Shown: positions 4,659-25,591 of the stretch, piece after piece | Numbering within the stretch: position 1 is the stretch's first letter | How the letters are laid out: each line of letters opens with the position of its first letter | Source: Rhodothermia bacterium | GTDB lineage: Bacteria; Bacteroidota; Rhodothermia; Rhodothermales; JAAAOL01 | Length of the DNA stretch: 34,913 nucleotides | NCBI GenBank assembly: GCA_030428385.1 | Contig: JAUIDY010000064.1 | Coordinates: 1 to 34,913 of the forward strand | Reading direction: 5' to 3' | Program-made: the position numbers and the translations under genes | The notes under the pieces: model-generated | Seen by the model: the letters and a program-made list of their open reading frames with translations, nothing else | Databases searched by the model: none | What the model was told of the DNA's origin: nothing

Positions 4659-6182
4659 ATGCTGCGCCGCTTCTTCATATCCAGCGGCTGGTTGCTGGTC
4701 CTCTTCGTTTGGGTTTTGCCGGGTATGGCCCAGCAAGCCCCTCCGATGTTTCTCAGCGAGGAGTCTTCGGTGTCACTGATGGAAGAGGGGCAGGATGCAC
4801 TTTGGGATCTACGGTTTGATGAAGCCCAGCGCCTGTTTGAAGAATTACAACATCGCCCTGATGGTGCGATTGCGGGGGCGTACCATCTCTCGTATTTGGC
4901 GCTTTTCAACGCCCTTTTTACGGACAGCCGCAGCACCTTTGACGTCTATTATACCCGTTCTGACGCCTTGTTTGAAGCGTTGGAGGAAGTCTCCAATTCA
5001 CCCTGGAAGCGATATTTGGAAGCGGAGGCTCACTTGCACCGGGCGATGGCAGGTGCCAAAACGGGACGACAGGTGCGGGCTGCTCTTGCTGCGCGGACGG
5101 CCTACAACAAATATAATTCGTGTATAGAAGAAGCCCCAGAACTCTATGATGCCTATGCAGGCACGGGTGTCTTCAACATCATTATTGGCTCCTTACCGAG
5201 TCGGTATCAACGGCTTCTGGGAATCCTCGGATACCGAGGCTCTGTATCCGATGGACTCGATCAACTGGCCCTCGCTGCTGAAAAAAGCGCCTATGCAAAG
5301 CATCAAGCCCAAACCATCCTCGCATTGACGGATGTGATGCTGAATGGATCGGCGGGTGGCGGTGTAGACATACTTAAGGCTCTACATGAGGAAAACCCTG
5401 AAAGCTCCCTCTTTTCCTACTTATACGGATTTGCCTTGGTCTCGAACCGACAAGCTGCACTGGCTGAGGAAAAACTTCAGTCGGCGTTCGATGCAGGCAC
5501 GTCGGCAGCGTATTTTTTTGTTGACTATGCCGAGTTTTATCTTGCCCAGTCTCAATTTCAGCAACATAAACTGGAGGCTGCTGTCGGTCATTATCAGCAC
5601 TACATCCATCGGCATCAAGGGGAGGCGCTTAAGGCCGTGGCCCATCTTGAATTGGGCTTGAGTTTGGAGCTGTTGGGACGTAGAGAAGAGGCGCTAGCCT
5701 ATTACGAGCAAGTAAGCAGTGAGCGCGCATTCGACAGCGATCAGGCGGCCCGCCGCCTTGCCCGCCGTCGGTTGGTAGCTCCGATGACAGAATCGGAACA
5801 GCAATTACTGCGAGGGCGCAATGCATTTGATGCGGGGGAGAATGATTCAGCCCTCACTTTTTTGTTTCCAGTGTTTGAGGAGGGGGGGCGCAATCAACGT
5901 GCAGAGGCCGCCTATCGATTGGGGCGAGTCTACCACACAATGGAAGATGCGGAGGCAGCCATTCGATATTATCAGGCAGCCATCGACGAACCGAGCAGCG
6001 ACCCGCTTGATCGGTGGGCACCGTGGGGGCAGTTCTATATCGCCGAGTTACACGCCGAGGCTGGTCGGCTGGATGAAGCCCGTGAGGGGTACCACGCGGC
6101 ACTGAGTTATGCTAACGCGTACGATTATCACTTGGCCCTGGAACAGCAGGCCAAGCTACGGCTCGAAAAACTTCCCTCGTAA
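4659..6182 (+). CDS. secreted tetratricopeptide repeat (TPR) protein
   Basis: The protein has 507 residues. An N-terminal signal peptide ends near MAQ (residue about 24). The rest is helical with TPR-like units, clearest in the C-terminal third (YRLGRVYHTMEDAEAAIRYY and FYIAELHAEAGRLDEAREGY), which have the W/L-G-Y-A-P-type spacing. Upstream units such as DALWDLRFDEAQRLFEEL are more divergent. It is expected to be periplasmic or surface-associated, acting in protein-protein contact; no catalytic motif is visible. An AGAGG Shine-Dalgarno at 4644-4648 supports the ATG at 4659. It begins 33 bases after the symporter gene and may be co-transcribed. Its 3' end is only 5 bases from the end of the convergent AbgT-family gene. 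Confidence 0.8.
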   Translation: MLRRFFISSGWLLVLFVWVLPGMAQQAPPMFLSEESSVSLMEEGQDALWDLRFDEAQRLFEELQHRPDGAIAGAYHLSYLALFNALFTDSRSTFDVYYTRSDALFEALEEVSNSPWKRYLEAEAHLHRAMAGAKTGRQVRAALAARTAYNKYNSCIEEAPELYDAYAGTGVFNIIIGSLPSRYQRLLGILGYRGSVSDGLDQLALAAEKSAYAKHQAQTILALTDVMLNGSAGGGVDILKALHEENPESSLFSYLYGFALVSNRQAALAEEKLQSAFDAGTSAAYFFVDYAEFYLAQSQFQQHKLEAAVGHYQHYIHRHQGEALKAVAHLELGLSLELLGRREEALAYYEQVSSERAFDSDQAARRLARRRLVAPMTESEQQLLRGRNAFDAGENDSALTFLFPVFEEGGRNQRAEAAYRLGRVYHTMEDAEAAIRYYQAAIDEPSSDPLDRWAPWGQFYIAELHAEAGRLDEAREGYHAALSYANAYDYHLALEQQAKLRLEKLPS

Positions 6183-19017: not shown

Positions 19018-19144
19018 TCAATTCAAACACAGGTTAGCAACTAGCTGAGAAGTGTGTATACCTTGCGACTGCGACAGTCAGTACCGGTGGTTCGCACACA
19101 AACACCCCCTACATCCTTCAACACAAGGAGAAGAGGTATCAGCT

Positions 19145-19618
19145 ATGAAAAACAACATCACGTTTATACTATCCCTGCTGCTTTTTGCAGTGATCTCGAC
19201 ACAGGCCAGTGCACAAGATTTCCTCGCCGATGCGCGAAACGAGGTGCACCTGTTTAATCAAACCTCCCTGGAGACCGAGCAGGTGCCTGAGTGGTGGTAC
19301 AAGGTTGAGAAAGAAGCCAACCTTCCGCCTGAAGCCACTCCGCTTGATGTGGAAGCAGCCGACCTTCAGGAAATCATCTACTATGCCACCTTGTACGGTG
19401 AGCGGTTTGACTTCCGGGCGTCGGTGGTGCAGCTACTGGATGTATACCAGTACCACAATGATGAGCGCTATCGTATGCTTGCAGTTTCGGCCCTCCATGC
19501 CATTGGCGATCCTTTTGGGATCGAAGGGCTTCGTAAAGCGCTACGATATGAATCATCTCCACGAATTCGAACCGTCACCAAAGCCGCGCTAACATCCTTT
19601 GACTCGTCCAGCCAATAA
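19145..19618 (+). CDS. secreted HEAT-like repeat protein
   Basis: The protein has 157 residues with a clear signal peptide (MKNNITFILSLLLFAVISTQASA, cleavage before QD). The C-terminal half (about 75-152) looks like two HEAT-type helical pairs, for example RYRMLAVSALHAIGDPFGIEGLRKALRYE. It is probably periplasmic or surface-exposed, mediating protein contacts; no enzyme motif is seen. The ATG at 19145 is preceded by AAGGAG (19125-19130) and GAGG (19133-19136). It appears monocistronic, with candidate operators upstream and a strong terminator downstream. Confidence 0.75.
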   Translation: MKNNITFILSLLLFAVISTQASAQDFLADARNEVHLFNQTSLETEQVPEWWYKVEKEANLPPEATPLDVEAADLQEIIYYATLYGERFDFRASVVQLLDVYQYHNDERYRMLAVSALHAIGDPFGIEGLRKALRYESSPRIRTVTKAALTSFDSSSQ

Positions 19619-19715
19619 TGCAATGGACGGCGTTCAACAAAACTTAAAAACACCCCCGGTGTAGCTGTTCGCAACAACATTGGTGCATCCATAGCTTGGA
19701 GCATCAAAAATTGAG

Positions 19716-19760
19716 ACAGGTCTGCTTTGGCTTTTGAAGCCAAGGCAGACCTGTTTTTTT
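19716..19760 (+). terminator. strong Rho-independent terminator
   Basis: A near-perfect stem of about 18 base pairs (ACAGGTCTGC...TTGGCTT paired with AAGCCAA...GCAGACCTGT, three-base loop) is followed by eight T. It ends the HEAT-like gene transcript and isolates it from the pilin-like genes. Confidence 0.9.
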
Positions 19761-19763
19761 AGC

Positions 19764-20248
19764 TAATCTCCTTGTTTCAATTCGAAAAGTAGAGAGGAAA
19801 TAATTACCGAATCAGTAGATAAGTCAGTCTGAAATTAAGAAATAGGTCTCATTACAATTCTGCGTGGATGTTTACATTTCTCCCGAAAAAAACAGGTAAG
19901 GAAAGGAGAGAGTTGTACATAAGGAGGCTGAAGAGGAAAAAAAAGAAGAGAATAAGTGTTCCATTCACCGTTTCAATTTTAAGATTTGATAGGTGCTTTT
20001 CGGGAAGCAGGAGCCGTAAAGCGGGGAGAAATCCACATTTAAGGAGTGGTGGACTCATTGCGTGGTAATTATGAATACAAGACAACGGCAGCCTCTAGAA
20101 TAATAAGTGATGAAGAAGGTTGGGTTTGGCATAATCATAGATGTGATAGCAGGTGCTCCCACCCTTGTCTTGTTAGGGTCAGAGCGAAAATCGACAACAA
20201 CATCAAGTCAAAAAGAAATTGACCATTTTTATCCTCGTTTAGTCCGAT
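19764..20248 (+). other. AT-rich stretch without a recognisable gene
   Basis: About 485 bases between the terminator and the first pilin-like gene, visibly richer in A and T than the flanks and purine-biased around 19890-19955. Short frames at 19868-20068 and 20107-20355 lack family resemblance and run into or across the next gene. A small hairpin (TGCTT/AAGCA with a TTCGGG loop) is present at about 19994. The stretch probably holds the promoter and leader of the pilin-like operon, possibly with decayed sequence. Confidence 0.5.
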
Positions 20249-20719
20249 ATGCCACAAACCCTTCTTGCCCTTCTTGCCCTAACACTAGCAACAGGTTTTG
20301 TGTTTACCTCTCACCAGCGCTATATGCTGGTAGAACGTCGGTTGATTTCGCTTGAAGTAGCAGAAATGGGAGGTGCCGTCGCGAAGGAATCCATGCAGAT
20401 TATCGCCAACATGGAATTTGGTGACAATGATTTTGGGAACGAGCGAAAATGCCTTCAATTCCACACGACCAATCCGGTGGTTTGTGACGACCTGGATGAC
20501 TTTGACAACATGTCTACGGCAGAAAAAAAGTTTGAACTTGGTGGAATTGACTATTCGTTCATCTTGAACGTAGATGTAGAATATCGGGATGAGGCCAATC
20601 GGGATTCATCCGTTGCGGGTCCAACAAACGTCCAGGCGGTCACGGTTTCTGTTCAGGATAAGTCGGGACTTTATTTGCCCTCTCCTATTACCCTTGAACG
20701 TCAATTTTCAACCGAATAA
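20249..20719 (+). CDS. membrane-anchored minor-pilin-like protein (PilV-like position)
   Basis: The protein has 156 residues. A short N-terminus is followed at once by a hydrophobic helix (TLLALLALTLATGFVF) and an amphipathic heptad-like stretch (RYMLVERRLISLEVAEMGGAVAKESMQII). A small beta-rich domain follows, with two Cys (CLQF and VCDD). The long helix followed by a small domain is how type IV pilins and pseudopilins are built, but there is no GFTLIE-type prepilin peptidase site. An in-frame stop six bases upstream fixes the start at or after 20249. It is the first of three similarly built genes in a row. Function is inferred only from architecture. Confidence 0.55.
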   Translation: MPQTLLALLALTLATGFVFTSHQRYMLVERRLISLEVAEMGGAVAKESMQIIANMEFGDNDFGNERKCLQFHTTNPVVCDDLDDFDNMSTAEKKFELGGIDYSFILNVDVEYRDEANRDSSVAGPTNVQAVTVSVQDKSGLYLPSPITLERQFSTE

Positions 20720-20744
20720 ATACTCGTAACTCGGAGTCTGCCTT

Positions 20745-21383
20745 ATGTGGTTCCACTGGGACAACTTAACCGCTGCGATGATCGTCTCTACGGTCGTGTT
20801 GCTCCTGTTAGTGACACGCCAGCGGATGGTGGAAGTAAACATTGAGCAAACTTCCAACTTAATTGTCAGAACTGCCACAGACTCCTTTTCGATCTGGCTT
20901 GAAGATGACTTGGATACCATGGGAGATCTTCTCGACCTGGATGTCGAGATCCCAGTCATTTCTCTTTCAGATAGCACCATTTACGCCTATGAAGATGGTG
21001 ATACGACAGGGATTGATGTCACGACGGAATTCATCTTTACGTCAAATGGGGGAGAGTACATCAAATATCAGCTCGCCAATCCGACCCGGCGTGATGTGAA
21101 CGGAAAGGACCTGGTTGTCTTTGATTTTAAAAGATCCACTAGAATTGTAGCGGATGGCCCCGATTACACAGAAAATGGAGGATTTCCCCTGCCTCTTTCA
21201 AGTTTCAAGGTAGACTTCCTCGACATCAATGGAAGTGTGATTGCTAACCCGCTTGCTTCTGCACCTGGAACTATCCGAAATACGCGGGTCCGTTTTGCAG
21301 TCGTCACACCCTATGACGTTAGCAGATCAACAATTCGTGAGTTGTACTACGGCTCCACCTTACTCCTTGACTATGATGAATAG
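20745..21383 (+). CDS. membrane-anchored minor-pilin-like protein (PilW-like position)
   Basis: The protein has 212 residues. One N-terminal hydrophobic helix (AAMIVSTVVLLLLVTR) runs into a polar helix (QRMVEVNIEQTSNLIVRTATDSFSIWLEDDLDTMGDLLD). A beta-rich domain follows, containing FKVDFLDINGSVI and TIRNTRVRFAVVTP, which resembles PilW-type and other pseudopilin domains in style. No prepilin peptidase motif is present. GGAG at 20732-20735 supports the ATG. The gene starts 25 bases after the previous stop, consistent with one operon. Confidence 0.55.
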   Translation: MWFHWDNLTAAMIVSTVVLLLLVTRQRMVEVNIEQTSNLIVRTATDSFSIWLEDDLDTMGDLLDLDVEIPVISLSDSTIYAYEDGDTTGIDVTTEFIFTSNGGEYIKYQLANPTRRDVNGKDLVVFDFKRSTRIVADGPDYTENGGFPLPLSSFKVDFLDINGSVIANPLASAPGTIRNTRVRFAVVTPYDVSRSTIRELYYGSTLLLDYDE

Positions 21384-21433
21384 TTAGGGATAATTGACAA
21401 TGTAACCCCAATTCGTCCATACGGAGGTTTCCA

Positions 21434-22570
21434 ATGGGTAAACTTGGTCTTTTACTAGTAGCTGCCTTCCTATTTATGGGAGGCTATGTGCTTTTTCAGT
21501 CTGACAGATCAGACAAGGCCATTGATGAAAGTCAAAGCGTTCGACAAGCTGAATTACTTGCCAGGGAAGCCGCCCAATCTGGCTTCAACGAGATGCTGGC
21601 GCTAGCTCGTGGTACCGAAGGAAGCACTTCTTGGGACGATATTGACGAATTCCTTGAAAACGTTGGTTACTCATATGATAGCCCGCTGACCCGAACCCTG
21701 GGATTGGGGAGTTATCGTGCTTGGGTGGAGCAGGGTAGTGCTGATGCCTACGACGTTGTTGCAGAGGGCGTTTATTCCTTCTGGAATTCTACCCTTGATG
21801 AAGCCGACTCAGCGTATCACCAGGTAAAGCTTCGTAGCATTATCCCAACTGACGACGATCCCTATGACCCCGGAGATCCGTGCACCGGCTTGCTCTGCGT
21901 GGAAGGAGATACCGAAGAGTATGAACTGACGGCTGGGTTCATTGAGTCGCAGGCAGGGTGGTGTTCAGCCATTTATCTCCAGCAGTTCGTTCCTGACGGC
22001 AACTACGAGAGTGGCTACCGCGAAGAAATCGACATCATGTTTGAATCAGGGCACTATCGGGACGGATATTCGACCACGTTCGAGCAAGTGATTGAAGATG
22101 GGACACAGCTCAACTTTATCCTTGCCGTTGATATGAACTGTTCTTCGGAACACGACTGGGACGTCGCATATGGCGATGCGACGTATAACCATTATCACGT
22201 GGCATTGGAAGTAGATGCAGAGGACATCAACGACATGTATGAGGGTACCTTTGCAATGATCGAGGAGTATTCCTCATCGGAAGGGAAATGGCGGATTGCC
22301 TTCGAAGACCAGAACTTCTACTCGGAGGATCAATACCTCGACATCAAGCAGAATGGCTACGGCGATGAGGAATGGGAATATGTCTGCACCCGCTATCGTC
22401 GGGGAAAATGCCGCCGGGGCTATTACACGTGGGGTGGAGACGGATGGGAAGAAAATTGGCCGGACTACCTTCGCGAACTTGACGATTATGGGAGTCAGCC
22501 CGACTACAGTGACCAGGTTTTCTGGATCGAATTAAATCCGGTTGAGGAGGAAGAGGAGGAAGAAGCCTAA
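21434..22570 (+). CDS. membrane-anchored pilin-like acidic protein (PilX/GspK-like N-terminus)
   Basis: The protein has 378 residues. The N-terminal hydrophobic helix (LGLLLVAAFLFMGGYVLF) leads into SVRQAELLAREAAQSGFNEMLALARG, which strongly resembles the helix of PilX/GspK-type minor pilins. The remaining 300 residues form a very acidic, aromatic-rich domain with several Cys (DPCTGLLC, GWCSAIY, YVCTRYRRGKCRRGYYTWGGDGW) and end in a run of seven Glu. GGAGG at 21423-21427 gives a good start signal. It is the last gene of the three-gene set and is followed by a strong terminator. The large domain suggests a tip or adhesive subunit, but this is inference. Confidence 0.55.
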   Translation: MGKLGLLLVAAFLFMGGYVLFQSDRSDKAIDESQSVRQAELLAREAAQSGFNEMLALARGTEGSTSWDDIDEFLENVGYSYDSPLTRTLGLGSYRAWVEQGSADAYDVVAEGVYSFWNSTLDEADSAYHQVKLRSIIPTDDDPYDPGDPCTGLLCVEGDTEEYELTAGFIESQAGWCSAIYLQQFVPDGNYESGYREEIDIMFESGHYRDGYSTTFEQVIEDGTQLNFILAVDMNCSSEHDWDVAYGDATYNHYHVALEVDAEDINDMYEGTFAMIEEYSSSEGKWRIAFEDQNFYSEDQYLDIKQNGYGDEEWEYVCTRYRRGKCRRGYYTWGGDGWEENWPDYLRELDDYGSQPDYSDQVFWIELNPVEEEEEEEA

Positions 22571-22590: not shown

Positions 22591-22630
22591 CAACGCCAAC
22601 CTGAATAACTCGGGTTGGCGTTGTTTTTTT
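22591..22630 (+). terminator. Rho-independent terminator of the pilin-like operon
   Basis: CAACGCCAACC (22591-22601) pairs perfectly with GGTTGGCGTTG (22613-22623) and is followed by seven T. It sits 20 bases after the last plus-strand gene and just before the 3' end of the convergent transport operon. The minus strand lacks a T run here. Confidence 0.9.
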
Positions 22631-22633
22631 GGG

Positions 22634-23482
22634 CTATCCTTTTACTGCTCCGAGGGTCAACCCGGAGATCAAGTATCGGCTCAGGACGAGGAAAAGCAGA
22701 ACAACGGGAATAGAGACCAACAAAGCACCGGCTGCGTACAGCCCCCATTGTGTAGTCAGGCTTCCTTGAAACAGTTTGAGGCCTAGCGGGAGGGTGAAAA
22801 GGTTGGTGTCTTGTAACACTACGTTGGCCACCACATATTCATTCCAGGCCGTCATAAAGGAAAACAGGGCCGTTATAACAAGCGCGGGTGCGGCGAGCGG
22901 AAAGATCACCTTGTAAAACGCCTGCCAGGGAGTACATCCATCGATACGGGCGGCTTCTTCCAATGCATAAGGGATGGTGTCATAATACCCTTTCATTTGC
23001 CACACACAAAAAGGGAGGGCCGTCGCTGTATAAATAATGATGATGCCCAAGTAGGAATTTAGCAACTGCAAGTTGATAAGAACCACGTAGAGTGGAAGCA
23101 GCAACATAGTCGCGGGAAACATTTGCGTGACCAAGAGTCCACTCAGCATTGCCCCCTTCCCTGCAAACTTGAAACGCGAAAGCGCATATCCGGCTGTCGA
23201 AGCAAAAGCAACGCCGGTGACAGTGACGACCAAGGAGACGAGGATGGAGTTAAACAGCCAGCGCAAAAAAGGCGTCTCAAAAAGCAGCACGCGGTAGTTC
23301 TCCAGCGTGGCATCGTCTGGGAATAGTGCCAGCGAAGTAGAGAGCAAACGGTCGCCCGGACGCAGAGAAATGGTCAGAATGCGTGTAACGGGGTAGACGG
23401 CGATCAGGGCAAAGACCAAGAGCACCATGTAGCTACCAAGCCGACCCAGAAAACGTTTACTATCGAATGAGGAGGCGTTCAT
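22634..23482 (-). CDS. carbohydrate ABC transporter permease (MalG type)
   Basis: The protein has about 282 residues with six membrane helices. The cytoplasmic EAA loop is clear (YALEEAARIDG...IFPLAAPAL, about 172-201), the docking site for the ATPase. Family-type segments include the N-terminal LRPGD..., NSILVSLVVTVTGVAFASTAGYALSRF and the TAWNEYVVA motif near helix 5. It would form the inner-membrane channel with the adjacent MalF-type subunit. The frame is open upstream to 23581, but that region overlaps the MalF-type gene, so the ATG at 23482, two bases after its stop, is chosen. It is the last gene of the starch operon in the window. Confidence 0.9.
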   Translation of the reverse strand: MNASSFDSKRFLGRLGSYMVLLVFALIAVYPVTRILTISLRPGDRLLSTSLALFPDDATLENYRVLLFETPFLRWLFNSILVSLVVTVTGVAFASTAGYALSRFKFAGKGAMLSGLLVTQMFPATMLLLPLYVVLINLQLLNSYLGIIIIYTATALPFCVWQMKGYYDTIPYALEEAARIDGCTPWQAFYKVIFPLAAPALVITALFSFMTAWNEYVVANVVLQDTNLFTLPLGLKLFQGSLTTQWGLYAAGALLVSIPVVLLFLVLSRYLISGLTLGAVKG

Positions 23483-23484
23483 GG

Positions 23485-24375
23485 TTAGTAAGCAGCTTCG
23501 GTGGCTTTCGTCCGTTTCAGCAGCACCTGGGTGAAGGCGAACAGGATAAAAAATATGATCATCGAAAGTGCCGCTGCCCACCCGAAGCGGTACATGGTAA
23601 AGGCCGCTTCATAGACATACGACACCAGAATGTGTGTCTGGTCATTGGGCTCTCCACCGTTGGAGACAAGCCATACGACGTTGATATTATTAAACGTCCA
23701 CACGATCCCTAACGTGATGGCAGGGATCATGACGGGTCTGAGGAGAGGCACGGTGATATTCCAGAATTTCTTCCACTCGCTGGCGCCATCCACATCAGCA
23801 GCTTCGTATAACTCGGCCGGGATCGATTGCAAACCACCGAGTGCAATCACCATCATAAAAGGGAACCCCAGCCAGATGTTGGTGAGAATAGCTGCGGCAA
23901 ACGCCGGACCGGGCTGTGTGAGCCACTCGATGGCTGGCAGGCTTAGGTATTGCCGCCACACGATGTCGATGGCCCCATATTCAGCGGTGAACATGCCCCG
24001 CCATGTCAAGGCGGTGATGTATTGAGGCAGCGCCCACGGAAGGATGAGCAAAACACGCCATGCCGACTTGCCCCGAATAAACTTCTGATGGAGCAACACC
24101 GCCAGAAAAACTCCGAGCCCCACATGAAAAACAATGTTTACTCCCGTCCAGATAATGGTCTTCAGGAAAACAGACCAAAACGCTGGTTCTCGTGCCACCG
24201 CCGCGTACTGCTGGAGACCAATCACTTCCCAGTCGCGGATGTGGTAGATGTTCATGTTTGATAGTGACAATACCACGTTGTAGAAAAACGGGTACGCCAC
24301 GACGGCCAACACCAACACGATGGTGGGGCCTAATAAGAAAAGGAGGAATAGCCGAAATCGCGTTTTTTCAGACAT
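23485..24375 (-). CDS. carbohydrate ABC transporter permease (MalF type)
   Basis: The 296-residue protein has six membrane helices and the EAA loop ELYEAADVDGASEWKKFWNITVPLL (about 188-212). WTFNNINVVWLVSNGGEPN is typical of MalF/UgpA-type sugar permeases. Unlike E. coli MalF, it lacks a large periplasmic P2 loop, as is usual outside Enterobacteria. It sits four bases downstream of the binding-protein gene and two bases upstream of the MalG-type gene. By context it imports maltose or maltodextrins. Confidence 0.9.
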   Translation of the reverse strand: MSEKTRFRLFLLFLLGPTIVLVLAVVAYPFFYNVVLSLSNMNIYHIRDWEVIGLQQYAAVAREPAFWSVFLKTIIWTGVNIVFHVGLGVFLAVLLHQKFIRGKSAWRVLLILPWALPQYITALTWRGMFTAEYGAIDIVWRQYLSLPAIEWLTQPGPAFAAAILTNIWLGFPFMMVIALGGLQSIPAELYEAADVDGASEWKKFWNITVPLLRPVMIPAITLGIVWTFNNINVVWLVSNGGEPNDQTHILVSYVYEAAFTMYRFGWAAALSMIIFFILFAFTQVLLKRTKATEAAY

Positions 24376-24379
24376 AGGC

Positions 24380-25591
24380 TTAAAGAAACGTGTCGGCGAT
24401 GCGTTTTTCGACTTCTTCCTGCATCCGCCGCGCGCCTTCTTCTGCAGAAATCGTCCCGCTCATTACGAGTTGATACGGTCCCCGCATGCCATCCCAAATC
24501 TGGCGCATTTGCGGGGCCGTAGGCATCGGACGACCAACCTCCACCTGGCGCAGCGAAGCCTGCAGCACCGGATTTTGCTGAACCACCTCTGCATTTCGCA
24601 CGGCATCAATCACGGGGATGGTTGCAATTTCTTCGGCCATGCGGGTTTGCATCTCAGGGCCCGTCAGGTACACGAGTAGATCGTGCACATAGGAGAGTTT
24701 TTCGTCGTTCACATTTACGTTTACAGCATATCCTTTGGCTGAGATTACCGGGGCACACCAATCGCTGCTGGCATCCATTCTCGGAATGCGGGCGAGGCCG
24801 TAATCTACGCCCGCGTCGCTGTAGCCCGCCCACGACCACGGGCCGTTGATGATAGACGCTGCCAGTTGGTCTTTAAAAAGCGTTTCGGCCACGTTATAAT
24901 CGCTCTGAGCGGGAATGAGCTGATGCTTGTCGCGCAGGTCGAGAACAAACTGAATGGCGCGGACAGTGGCTTCATTGTCGAGGGTAGGATTGCCCTGTTC
25001 ATCCATCACCCAGCCACCGGAGCACGTAAGGAAAGGAATGAAAAAGAATGGCTCGGTGTAGTTCCAGGTCAGCCCATAACGCACCTCATCACGGGCCTGC
25101 ACCTGCTTGAGAATCGTGATGAGACTGTCCATTGTTGTTGGAGGCGAAGGCATGAGCGCTTTGTTGTACACATACGTCAGGTGGTTGCCCACCTGATCAG
25201 CAACAAACCATGGCGTGCCTTCCCACTGAACGATACCATCTTCGTTAAACGAGGCCAGGAAGCTGTCGGGCAACACATCCGTAATAGGACGGATAGACTC
25301 CGTGAGGGCGAAGATCGAAACGTTGTCTGAGGGGCCAAAGACAAGCTCAGGTCCTTGTCCGCCCACCGACGCCGTGATAAAGAGGTTGCGCAACTCCTCG
25401 TTTTCCCGATACAGTATTTCGACGACACGGTCTGTGTGTGCGGCATTGTACGCGGCAATGGCGTCCTCAAAAAAAGCACGCTCCGCCCCGATTTTCTGAT
25501 GCCAGATACGAACCTTAACGCGTCCATCATCTGCCGAGCCACAGCCCGACAGAAGCAGGATTAGAAGCGCAAAGATCGAAAATGACCGCAT
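24380..25591 (-). CDS. lipoprotein sugar-binding protein of the ABC transporter (MalE-like)
   Basis: The protein has 403 residues. A type II signal peptide ends in the lipobox LLSGC, with the lipidated Cys at 17. The mature part has the extracellular solute-binding protein family 1 pattern: KVRIWHQKIGAERAFFEDAIAAYNAAH, then YVYNKALMPSPPTTMDSLITIL, the hinge region AASIINGPWSWAGY and PVISAKGYAVNVN. It would bind a maltodextrin and deliver it to the permease pair encoded directly downstream. A lipid-anchored binding protein is unusual for Gram-negative model organisms but occurs in this phylum; which membrane holds it is not certain. The gene follows the lipoprotein amylase gene by 15 bases. 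Confidence 0.9.
   Translation of the reverse strand: MRSFSIFALLILLLSGCGSADDGRVKVRIWHQKIGAERAFFEDAIAAYNAAHTDRVVEILYRENEELRNLFITASVGGQGPELVFGPSDNVSIFALTESIRPITDVLPDSFLASFNEDGIVQWEGTPWFVADQVGNHLTYVYNKALMPSPPTTMDSLITILKQVQARDEVRYGLTWNYTEPFFFIPFLTCSGGWVMDEQGNPTLDNEATVRAIQFVLDLRDKHQLIPAQSDYNVAETLFKDQLAASIINGPWSWAGYSDAGVDYGLARIPRMDASSDWCAPVISAKGYAVNVNVNDEKLSYVHDLLVYLTGPEMQTRMAEEIATIPVIDAVRNAEVVQQNPVLQASLRQVEVGRPMPTAPQMRQIWDGMRGPYQLVMSGTISAEEGARRMQEEVEKRIADTFL

Follow-up and report, generated by a model that had tools for sequence, protein, structure and literature searches.

Three minor-pilin-like genes of a Rhodothermia bacterium and a candidate type IV filament system without leader or prepilin peptidase

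Three consecutive genes, here termed P1, P2 and P3, on a 34,913-nucleotide stretch of DNA from a Rhodothermia bacterium (GenBank assembly GCA_030428385.1, contig JAUIDY010000064.1; the whole stretch is referred to as the window) very probably encode the minor pilins that make up the tip set of a leaderless type IV filament machine independent of prepilin peptidase, the trio being the equivalent of GspI-GspJ-GspK. In reviews, type IV filaments are defined by a class III signal peptide and a prepilin peptidase (PMC4471445; PMC10191384), the former consisting of a leader of 6–26 residues that ends in Gly or Ala and is followed by a hydrophobic stretch carrying Glu5 (PMC4471445). A preliminary description of the window had noticed three successive pilin-like open reading frames without a peptidase site, and this is borne out by the reading frames themselves, their fixed starts and the GspJ fold of P2. 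The suggestion that they formed a lineage-specific structure has to be given up, since the filament system spans Rhodothermota, Balneolota, Ignavibacteria and KSB1. The point that goes beyond that description is that the whole machine, including its major pilin PilA, is leaderless and that most of its hosts have no prepilin peptidase. The basis for this is wholly computational: gene content, gene order, fold and the absence of leader and peptidase were computed, and the mechanism is inferred from them.

The trio lies on one strand (Table 1), and each protein opens with a single long hydrophobic or amphipathic helix. No prepilin peptidase site is found in P1, P2 or P3. Each ATG is preceded by an in-frame stop, and between that stop and the ATG there is no ATG, GTG or TTG in any of the three genes, so that the starts cannot shift upstream and no leader is possible. 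PilA, which relatives encode in the same cluster as the trio, starts with MGQQQLLL, and M1, G2, Q3, Q4, Q5, L6, L7 and L8 are invariant in 55 sequences from several phyla. All 140 distinct PilA sequences with an MGQQQ start share an identical ATG, and in 82 of the 140 an in-frame stop lies one to five codons upstream; a common ATG with so frequent an upstream stop points to a PilA that, judged by its sequence, has no leader at all. The class III motif is likewise absent from all 141 PilA, 50 P2 and 45 P3 sequences, and its single occurrence among 52 P1 sequences is a false match at residue 34.

The type IV pilin fold, an N-terminal helix of about 50 residues followed by an antiparallel beta sheet, is found in the models of both PilA and P2. 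The model of PilA from Roseithermus sacchariphilus (predicted local distance difference test score, pLDDT, 88.7; alignment of 55 sequences) has a helix at residues 3–55 and a beta meander, and the first ten ranks of its VIA realignment are occupied by type IV pilins only, the best match being full-length PAK pilin 1oqw (Z 7.6, root-mean-square deviation 3.3, 120 residues aligned). Residue 4 of the model superposes on residue 1 of the 1oqw chain, which corresponds to the first mature residue of known pilins. An identical three-residue offset is given by the PilA profile against pilin sequences of the PDB, where position 9 falls on residue 6 (with weak E-values of 0.2–0.75), and by the hhalign register against E. 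coli GspG; among the hhalign comparisons with single E. coli GspI, GspJ, GspK and GspG sequences, the GspG register alone was informative. Translation of PilA thus begins about three residues ahead of the point at which other pilins start after cleavage, and Leu stands at the position of Glu5. Conservation is highest at the N-terminus of the protein (93% majority residue over residues 1–9 vs 44% over residues 63–153), which is unlike ordinary signal peptides.

On the strength of its model, P2 is taken to be a minor pilin of the GspJ/XcpW/EpsJ fold that has no leader. The AlphaFold model (pLDDT 85.7; 22-sequence alignment) comprises one helix, residues 3–60, and then an antiparallel beta sheet. 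In VIA realignment to the PDB, ranks 1–10 (Z 9.7–11.3) are taken by pseudopilins of the GspJ type and by two entries of a single type IV-like pilin from Thermus, the next unrelated row having Z 4.1; the match to 2ret_H reaches Z 11.3 (root-mean-square deviation 3.1, 136 residues aligned) and that to 3ci0_J Z 10.0. PilV, PilW and PilX are absent among the fold matches listed, of which the GspJ-type structures are the best, and are not thereby ruled out. Asp6, close to the canonical Glu5 position, is present in 37 of 50 family members. P2 is therefore the protein shown to match a pilin set, whereas the preliminary description had regarded the third protein as the closest.

The assignments of the two flanking proteins are more tentative. 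P1, in which the N-terminal hydrophobic helix continues into a small domain, is a putative leaderless minor pilin in the style of GspI or PilV, judging by gene order and style; M1, Q3, C68 and C79 are invariant in an alignment of 23 sequences, and a Cys68-Cys79 disulfide is probable. P3, by its position and size, would be the large minor pilin that corresponds to GspK or PilX, again leaderless, and probably the tip cap. In its alignment (25 sequences) the MGK start, an A-R-E-I-A-R-S-G motif, Cys177 and Cys236 are conserved, and 41 of 45 family members have Lys or Arg at position 3. The conserved Cys pairs of P1 and P3 are consistent with exported domains. The poly-Glu end of P3, previously seen as a mark of the exposed part, is real in the copies of the window's genome and restricted to them, and does not hold as a family feature. 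In some other Rhodothermales (L050:13079-14344, L051:8719-10143, L055:8121-9533), P3 bears C-terminal Pro/Asp-rich repeats that end in a Cys-rich domain (HRPPGNESNEH...); this extension, which the window P3 does not have, is likely to be a variable tip domain.

The machine that would assemble these pilins is found around the trio in relatives. The cluster order there is pilA, gspF, gspE/pilB, P1, P2, P3, pilT, a pilM-like gene, a pilO-like gene and the secretin gene, in an operon-like arrangement, and an uninterrupted run of gspF, gspE, the trio and pilT occurs at 14 Rhodothermales loci. Within the cluster, Pfam identifies T2SSF, T2SSE (two) and Secretin. In NCBIfam the large ATPase is best matched by PilB and the secretin by PilQ; the PilT subfamily model scores 305–313 bits, slightly below its cut-off of 319. 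The pilM-like and pilO-like proteins match no family and are named from position only. An assembly ATPase and a polytopic platform (T2SSE, T2SSF) are thus present in the cluster, as they are in the window's genome. Many clusters also have, after the first pilA, a gene for another leaderless pilin, shorter but likewise beginning with MGQQQ (L083:10792-11202 and others). Between pilA and gspF a Wzy_C O-antigen-ligase-like protein is encoded (L079:1836-3362, on contig C244 of the window's genome; L044:3944-5464), a position suggesting that the leaderless pilin carries O-linked glycans.

The trio and PilA travel together. The order P1-P2-P3 is retained at the 25 loci examined, and P2 relatives occur in 32 of 60 genomes (the window's own plus relatives, almost all from its order). 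Of 198 good genomes sampled from the phylum, 73 have leaderless PilA; P2 is present in 69 of these and in none of the other 125 (p = 5e-49). A scan of genome contigs for the PilA N-terminus yielded at least 427 relatives, of which the 80 retained belong mainly to Rhodothermota, Balneolota, Ignavibacteria/Melioribacter, Kryptoniota and KSB1; the cluster order of the Rhodothermales recurs in these other phyla. The earlier suggestions of a GspI-J-K style and of a pilus machine encoded elsewhere are in this way supported, by the fold of P2 and the conserved order in the one case and by the complete cluster in relatives and machine genes elsewhere in the genome in the other; neither a fold foreign to pilins nor a trio left unconserved was found.

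Searches of Pfam, NCBIfam and PDB sequences with single proteins or profiles returned no significant family for P1, P2, P3 or PilA; weak matches to HOK_GEF, Kunitz_legume, DUF7263 and MacB_PCD were discounted as products of chance or composition. The lack of a Pfam pilin match, together with that of any machine gene adjoining the trio in the window, would suit a view in which the helices serve as conventional Sec signal peptides or isolated membrane anchors, the three proteins being periplasmic or bound to the inner membrane and having nothing to do with a filament. This is highly improbable, being strongly disfavoured by the GspJ fold of P2 with a helix unbroken through residue 60, by the conservation of the PilA N-terminus, and by a fixed gene order within a pilus cluster combined with near-perfect co-occurrence with PilA.

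Independence from prepilin peptidase is suggested by its distribution. Among the 60 genomes, leaderless PilA is found in 42 and Peptidase_A24 exceeds its cut-off in six; in 37 of the 42 PilA-positive genomes no Peptidase_A24 exceeds it. Each of the six peptidase carriers has a canonical prepilin (PF07963) encoded no more than about 6 kb from its peptidase gene, and canonical prepilins are found in two further genomes, so that the peptidase is associated with the canonical prepilin (Fisher p = 5.6e-7) and not with leaderless PilA (p = 0.66). In the phylum sample, 64 of the 73 genomes with leaderless PilA have no Peptidase_A24, including nine of the ten single-contig genomes. With the same search, 28 genomes of the phylum and 12 of 14 controls are positive for the peptidase. 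Conservation of the trio in the phylum and the PilB- and PilC-type genes that the preliminary description proposed to look for were thus found, whereas the prepilin peptidase it also had in mind is missing from most hosts.

The window's own genome carries the machine in pieces. Contig C244 holds two pilA genes, the O-antigen-ligase-like gene, gspF and the start of gspE; C69 holds pilT and the pilM-like and pilO-like genes; further gspE genes lie on C138 and C150 and further pilA genes on C176 and C218. The secretin gene, present in relatives, was not seen in this genome, where contig C69 ends before its place. At least three P2-like genes are present (on C36, which is the window, C1 and C78), including a paralogue 60% identical to the window P2, and none of the three adjoins the machine on its own contig; C1 ends just upstream of its trio, and an end overlap of C1 with C244, which would join trio to machine, was not found. 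Because no P2-like gene stands beside the machine, the window trio is read as a free-standing extra tip set. Other features of these contigs deserve mention. The set on C78 (L168:4800-10628) is a third free-standing trio-like set, with P2 at 5394-5993 and then a P3 starting MGKGLL, and is followed by a 1016-residue protein with a Por secretion tail. On C176 (L080:2634-8516) an extra leaderless pilA is directly preceded by the gene for a 1960-residue beta-helix protein, possibly a surface adhesin, whose Por secretion tail is weak. On C138 (L067:9840-10874) a truncated gspE-like reading frame of 344 residues, resembling a duplicated N-terminal part, follows the full gspE.

Several observations weigh against a tip set in a peptidase-independent machine. 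The machine genes of the window's genome lie on other, short contigs (C244, C69, C138, C150), so that their link to this copy of the trio comes from synteny in relatives and from co-occurrence. It is conceivable that the machine is real but that the window trio, as a paralogue that has degenerated or been repurposed, has lost its place in the filament: it stands alone between terminators, and the genome has two other P2-like genes, with 49–59% identity between the window trio and the C1 copy. The three reading frames are, however, intact and keep the family-invariant residues, P2 and P3 have ribosome-binding sites, and P2 is still modelled as GspJ, all of which makes such decay unlikely. The fold match of PilA is moderate (Z 5–7.6), and Foldseek alone gave no match at E ≤ 0.001 for its model, nor for that of P2; the folds came from VIA realignment.

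A further difficulty is that a Pfam search is blind to peptidases of unknown family. The mechanism might accordingly be canonical and the enzyme another, an unrecognised non-A24 peptidase cutting a two-residue Met-Gly leader after Gly2; that residue is present in 140 of 141 PilA and 39 of 45 P3 sequences, and Gly is the canonical −1 residue. This is decidedly unlikely, given that the structural and profile registers place residue 4 and not residue 3 at mature +1, that Gly2 is missing from most P1 and P2, that the two residues include no Lys or Arg, that known leaders have 6–26 residues (PMC4471445), and that Gly2 is equally explained by removal of Met by methionine aminopeptidase. Lastly, the window's genome does encode one prepilin peptidase, on contig C101, beside a canonical type II secretion system (T2SS; L070:5241-13473) comprising a GspE-like ATPase, GspG, PilD and associated genes, in which GspG has the class III motif with the site G↓FSMTEL. 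The T2SSE match on C101 was rejected as the partner ATPase of the trio, being part of this T2SS with its own PilD and GspG. That an A24 peptidase is generally present in the hosts but missed, through assembly gaps or divergence, and cuts the pilins at an unusual site might seem in keeping with this gene and with the incompleteness of metagenome-assembled genomes. It is nonetheless extremely improbable in view of the single-contig genomes, the positive detections in the phylum and the controls, and the upstream stops, which leave nothing to cut. With canonical T2SS and PilD in the same genome as the leaderless machine, the window's genome provides an internal control.

If the trio does belong to a leaderless machine, the following mechanism can be envisaged. 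The pilin would be inserted by Sec and the signal recognition particle with its N-terminus in the cytoplasm, the uncleaved helix acting as a signal anchor, and methionine aminopeptidase may trim the Met before Gly in PilA and P3. A P1-P2-P3 tip complex would start assembly as GspI-J-K does, with P3 as the cap, and the PilB/GspE ATPase and PilC/GspF platform would then add PilA directly, with no need of cleavage, of N-methylation or of a salt bridge from Glu5; Gln3-Gln4-Gln5 of PilA may substitute for the free methylated N-terminus and for Glu5. PilT would retract the filament, and the secretin would be its exit; the presence of a pilT gene favours a retractable pilus over a secretion system, for which adhesion, surface motility and DNA uptake are candidate functions of the filament. 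The window cassette probably loads onto the shared machine, altering what the pilus tip binds. It is likely, with somewhat less assurance than the tip-set assignment itself, that a whole branch of type IV filaments has pilins born mature, with no leader, peptidase, N-methylation or major-pilin Glu5, in which an invariant N-terminal Gly-Gln-Gln-Gln takes over the contacts and the window trio serves as one exchangeable tip cassette.

The surroundings of the trio in the window agree largely with the preliminary description. Six terminator-like sites are found in the window vs 2.9 expected, and the two flanking the trio are the strongest by far, as had been claimed. The ribosome-binding sites described as good are so for P3, that of P2 being only fair; no Shine-Dalgarno sequence precedes P1. 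No pilus machine gene adjoins the trio within the window, its neighbours being unrelated.

Table 1. The trio and its flanking features, in window coordinates
Feature	Position	Strand	Remarks
HEAT-repeat protein	19052-19618		neighbour of trio; weak match
Terminator-like hairpin	19714-19756	+	20 pairs; upstream of operon
In-frame TAG	20240-20242	+	2 codons 5' of P1 ATG; rules out leader
P1	20249-20719	+	156 residues; open reading frame call
In-frame TAA	20727-20729	+	5 codons 5' of P2 ATG; rules out leader
Shine-Dalgarno GGAG	20733-20736	+	before P2; fair
P2	20745-21383	+	212 residues; open reading frame call
In-frame TGA	21395-21397	+	12 codons 5' of P3 ATG
Shine-Dalgarno GGAGG	21423-21427	+	before P3; good
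P3	21434-22570	+	378 residues; open reading frame call
Terminator-like hairpin	22591-22623	+	14 pairs; downstream of operon
Sugar ATP-binding cassette (ABC) transporter	22634-25591		downstream neighbour of trio

No description of leaderless pilins was found in the literature searched, a search that lay outside most subscription papers and all preprints. Cleavage by prepilin peptidase is viewed as required for every type IV filament (PMC4471445; PMC10191384), and surveys keyed to it or to the class III signal peptide therefore miss a leaderless system. The authors of the Melioribacter roseus genome, who found the 'type IV pili genes' pilT, pilQ, pilB and pilC (PMC3534657), seem to have missed it in this way: a member of the Melioribacteraceae (L139) has the same kind of cluster with a leaderless pilA, which is probably the pilA missing from their account. 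If the interpretation holds, filament assembly would be separable from N-terminal processing, there would be natural material with which to test the roles of cleavage, methylation and Glu5, and many 'hypothetical' proteins in several phyla would be assigned to a machine.

Among known systems, the T2SS genes GspI-GspJ-GspK (XcpV-W-X, EpsI-J-K) resemble the trio as three adjacent genes in the order small-medium-large, with a GspJ fold in P2 (Z up to 11.3) and ATPase and platform genes adjoining in relatives. The trio system differs in having neither leader nor cleavage Gly, and no Glu5 save for Asp6 in P2; moreover, a PilT-type ATPase is encoded in the leaderless cluster and in the window's genome whereas the T2SS has no PilT, and the leaderless cluster has no GspO gene. 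The 'T2SS' of Cytophaga hutchinsonii is, like the leaderless machine, a divergent type IV filament relative of the same superphylum (PMC6668835; PMC5553014), and Denise et al. noted that the major pilin of the Cytophaga-type system is very divergent (PMC6668835). Identity of the two was nevertheless rejected, since the Cytophaga cluster encodes a Peptidase_A24 protein, CHU_3197 (PMC5553014), and the leaderless cluster does not. Type IVa pili share with the leaderless cluster the joint presence of PilB-, PilC-, PilT- and PilQ-like components, the fold of PilA, and PilM- and PilO-like proteins where these would be expected; unlike type IVa pili, the leaderless system has pilins without a class III signal peptide and, in most of its hosts, no prepilin peptidase.
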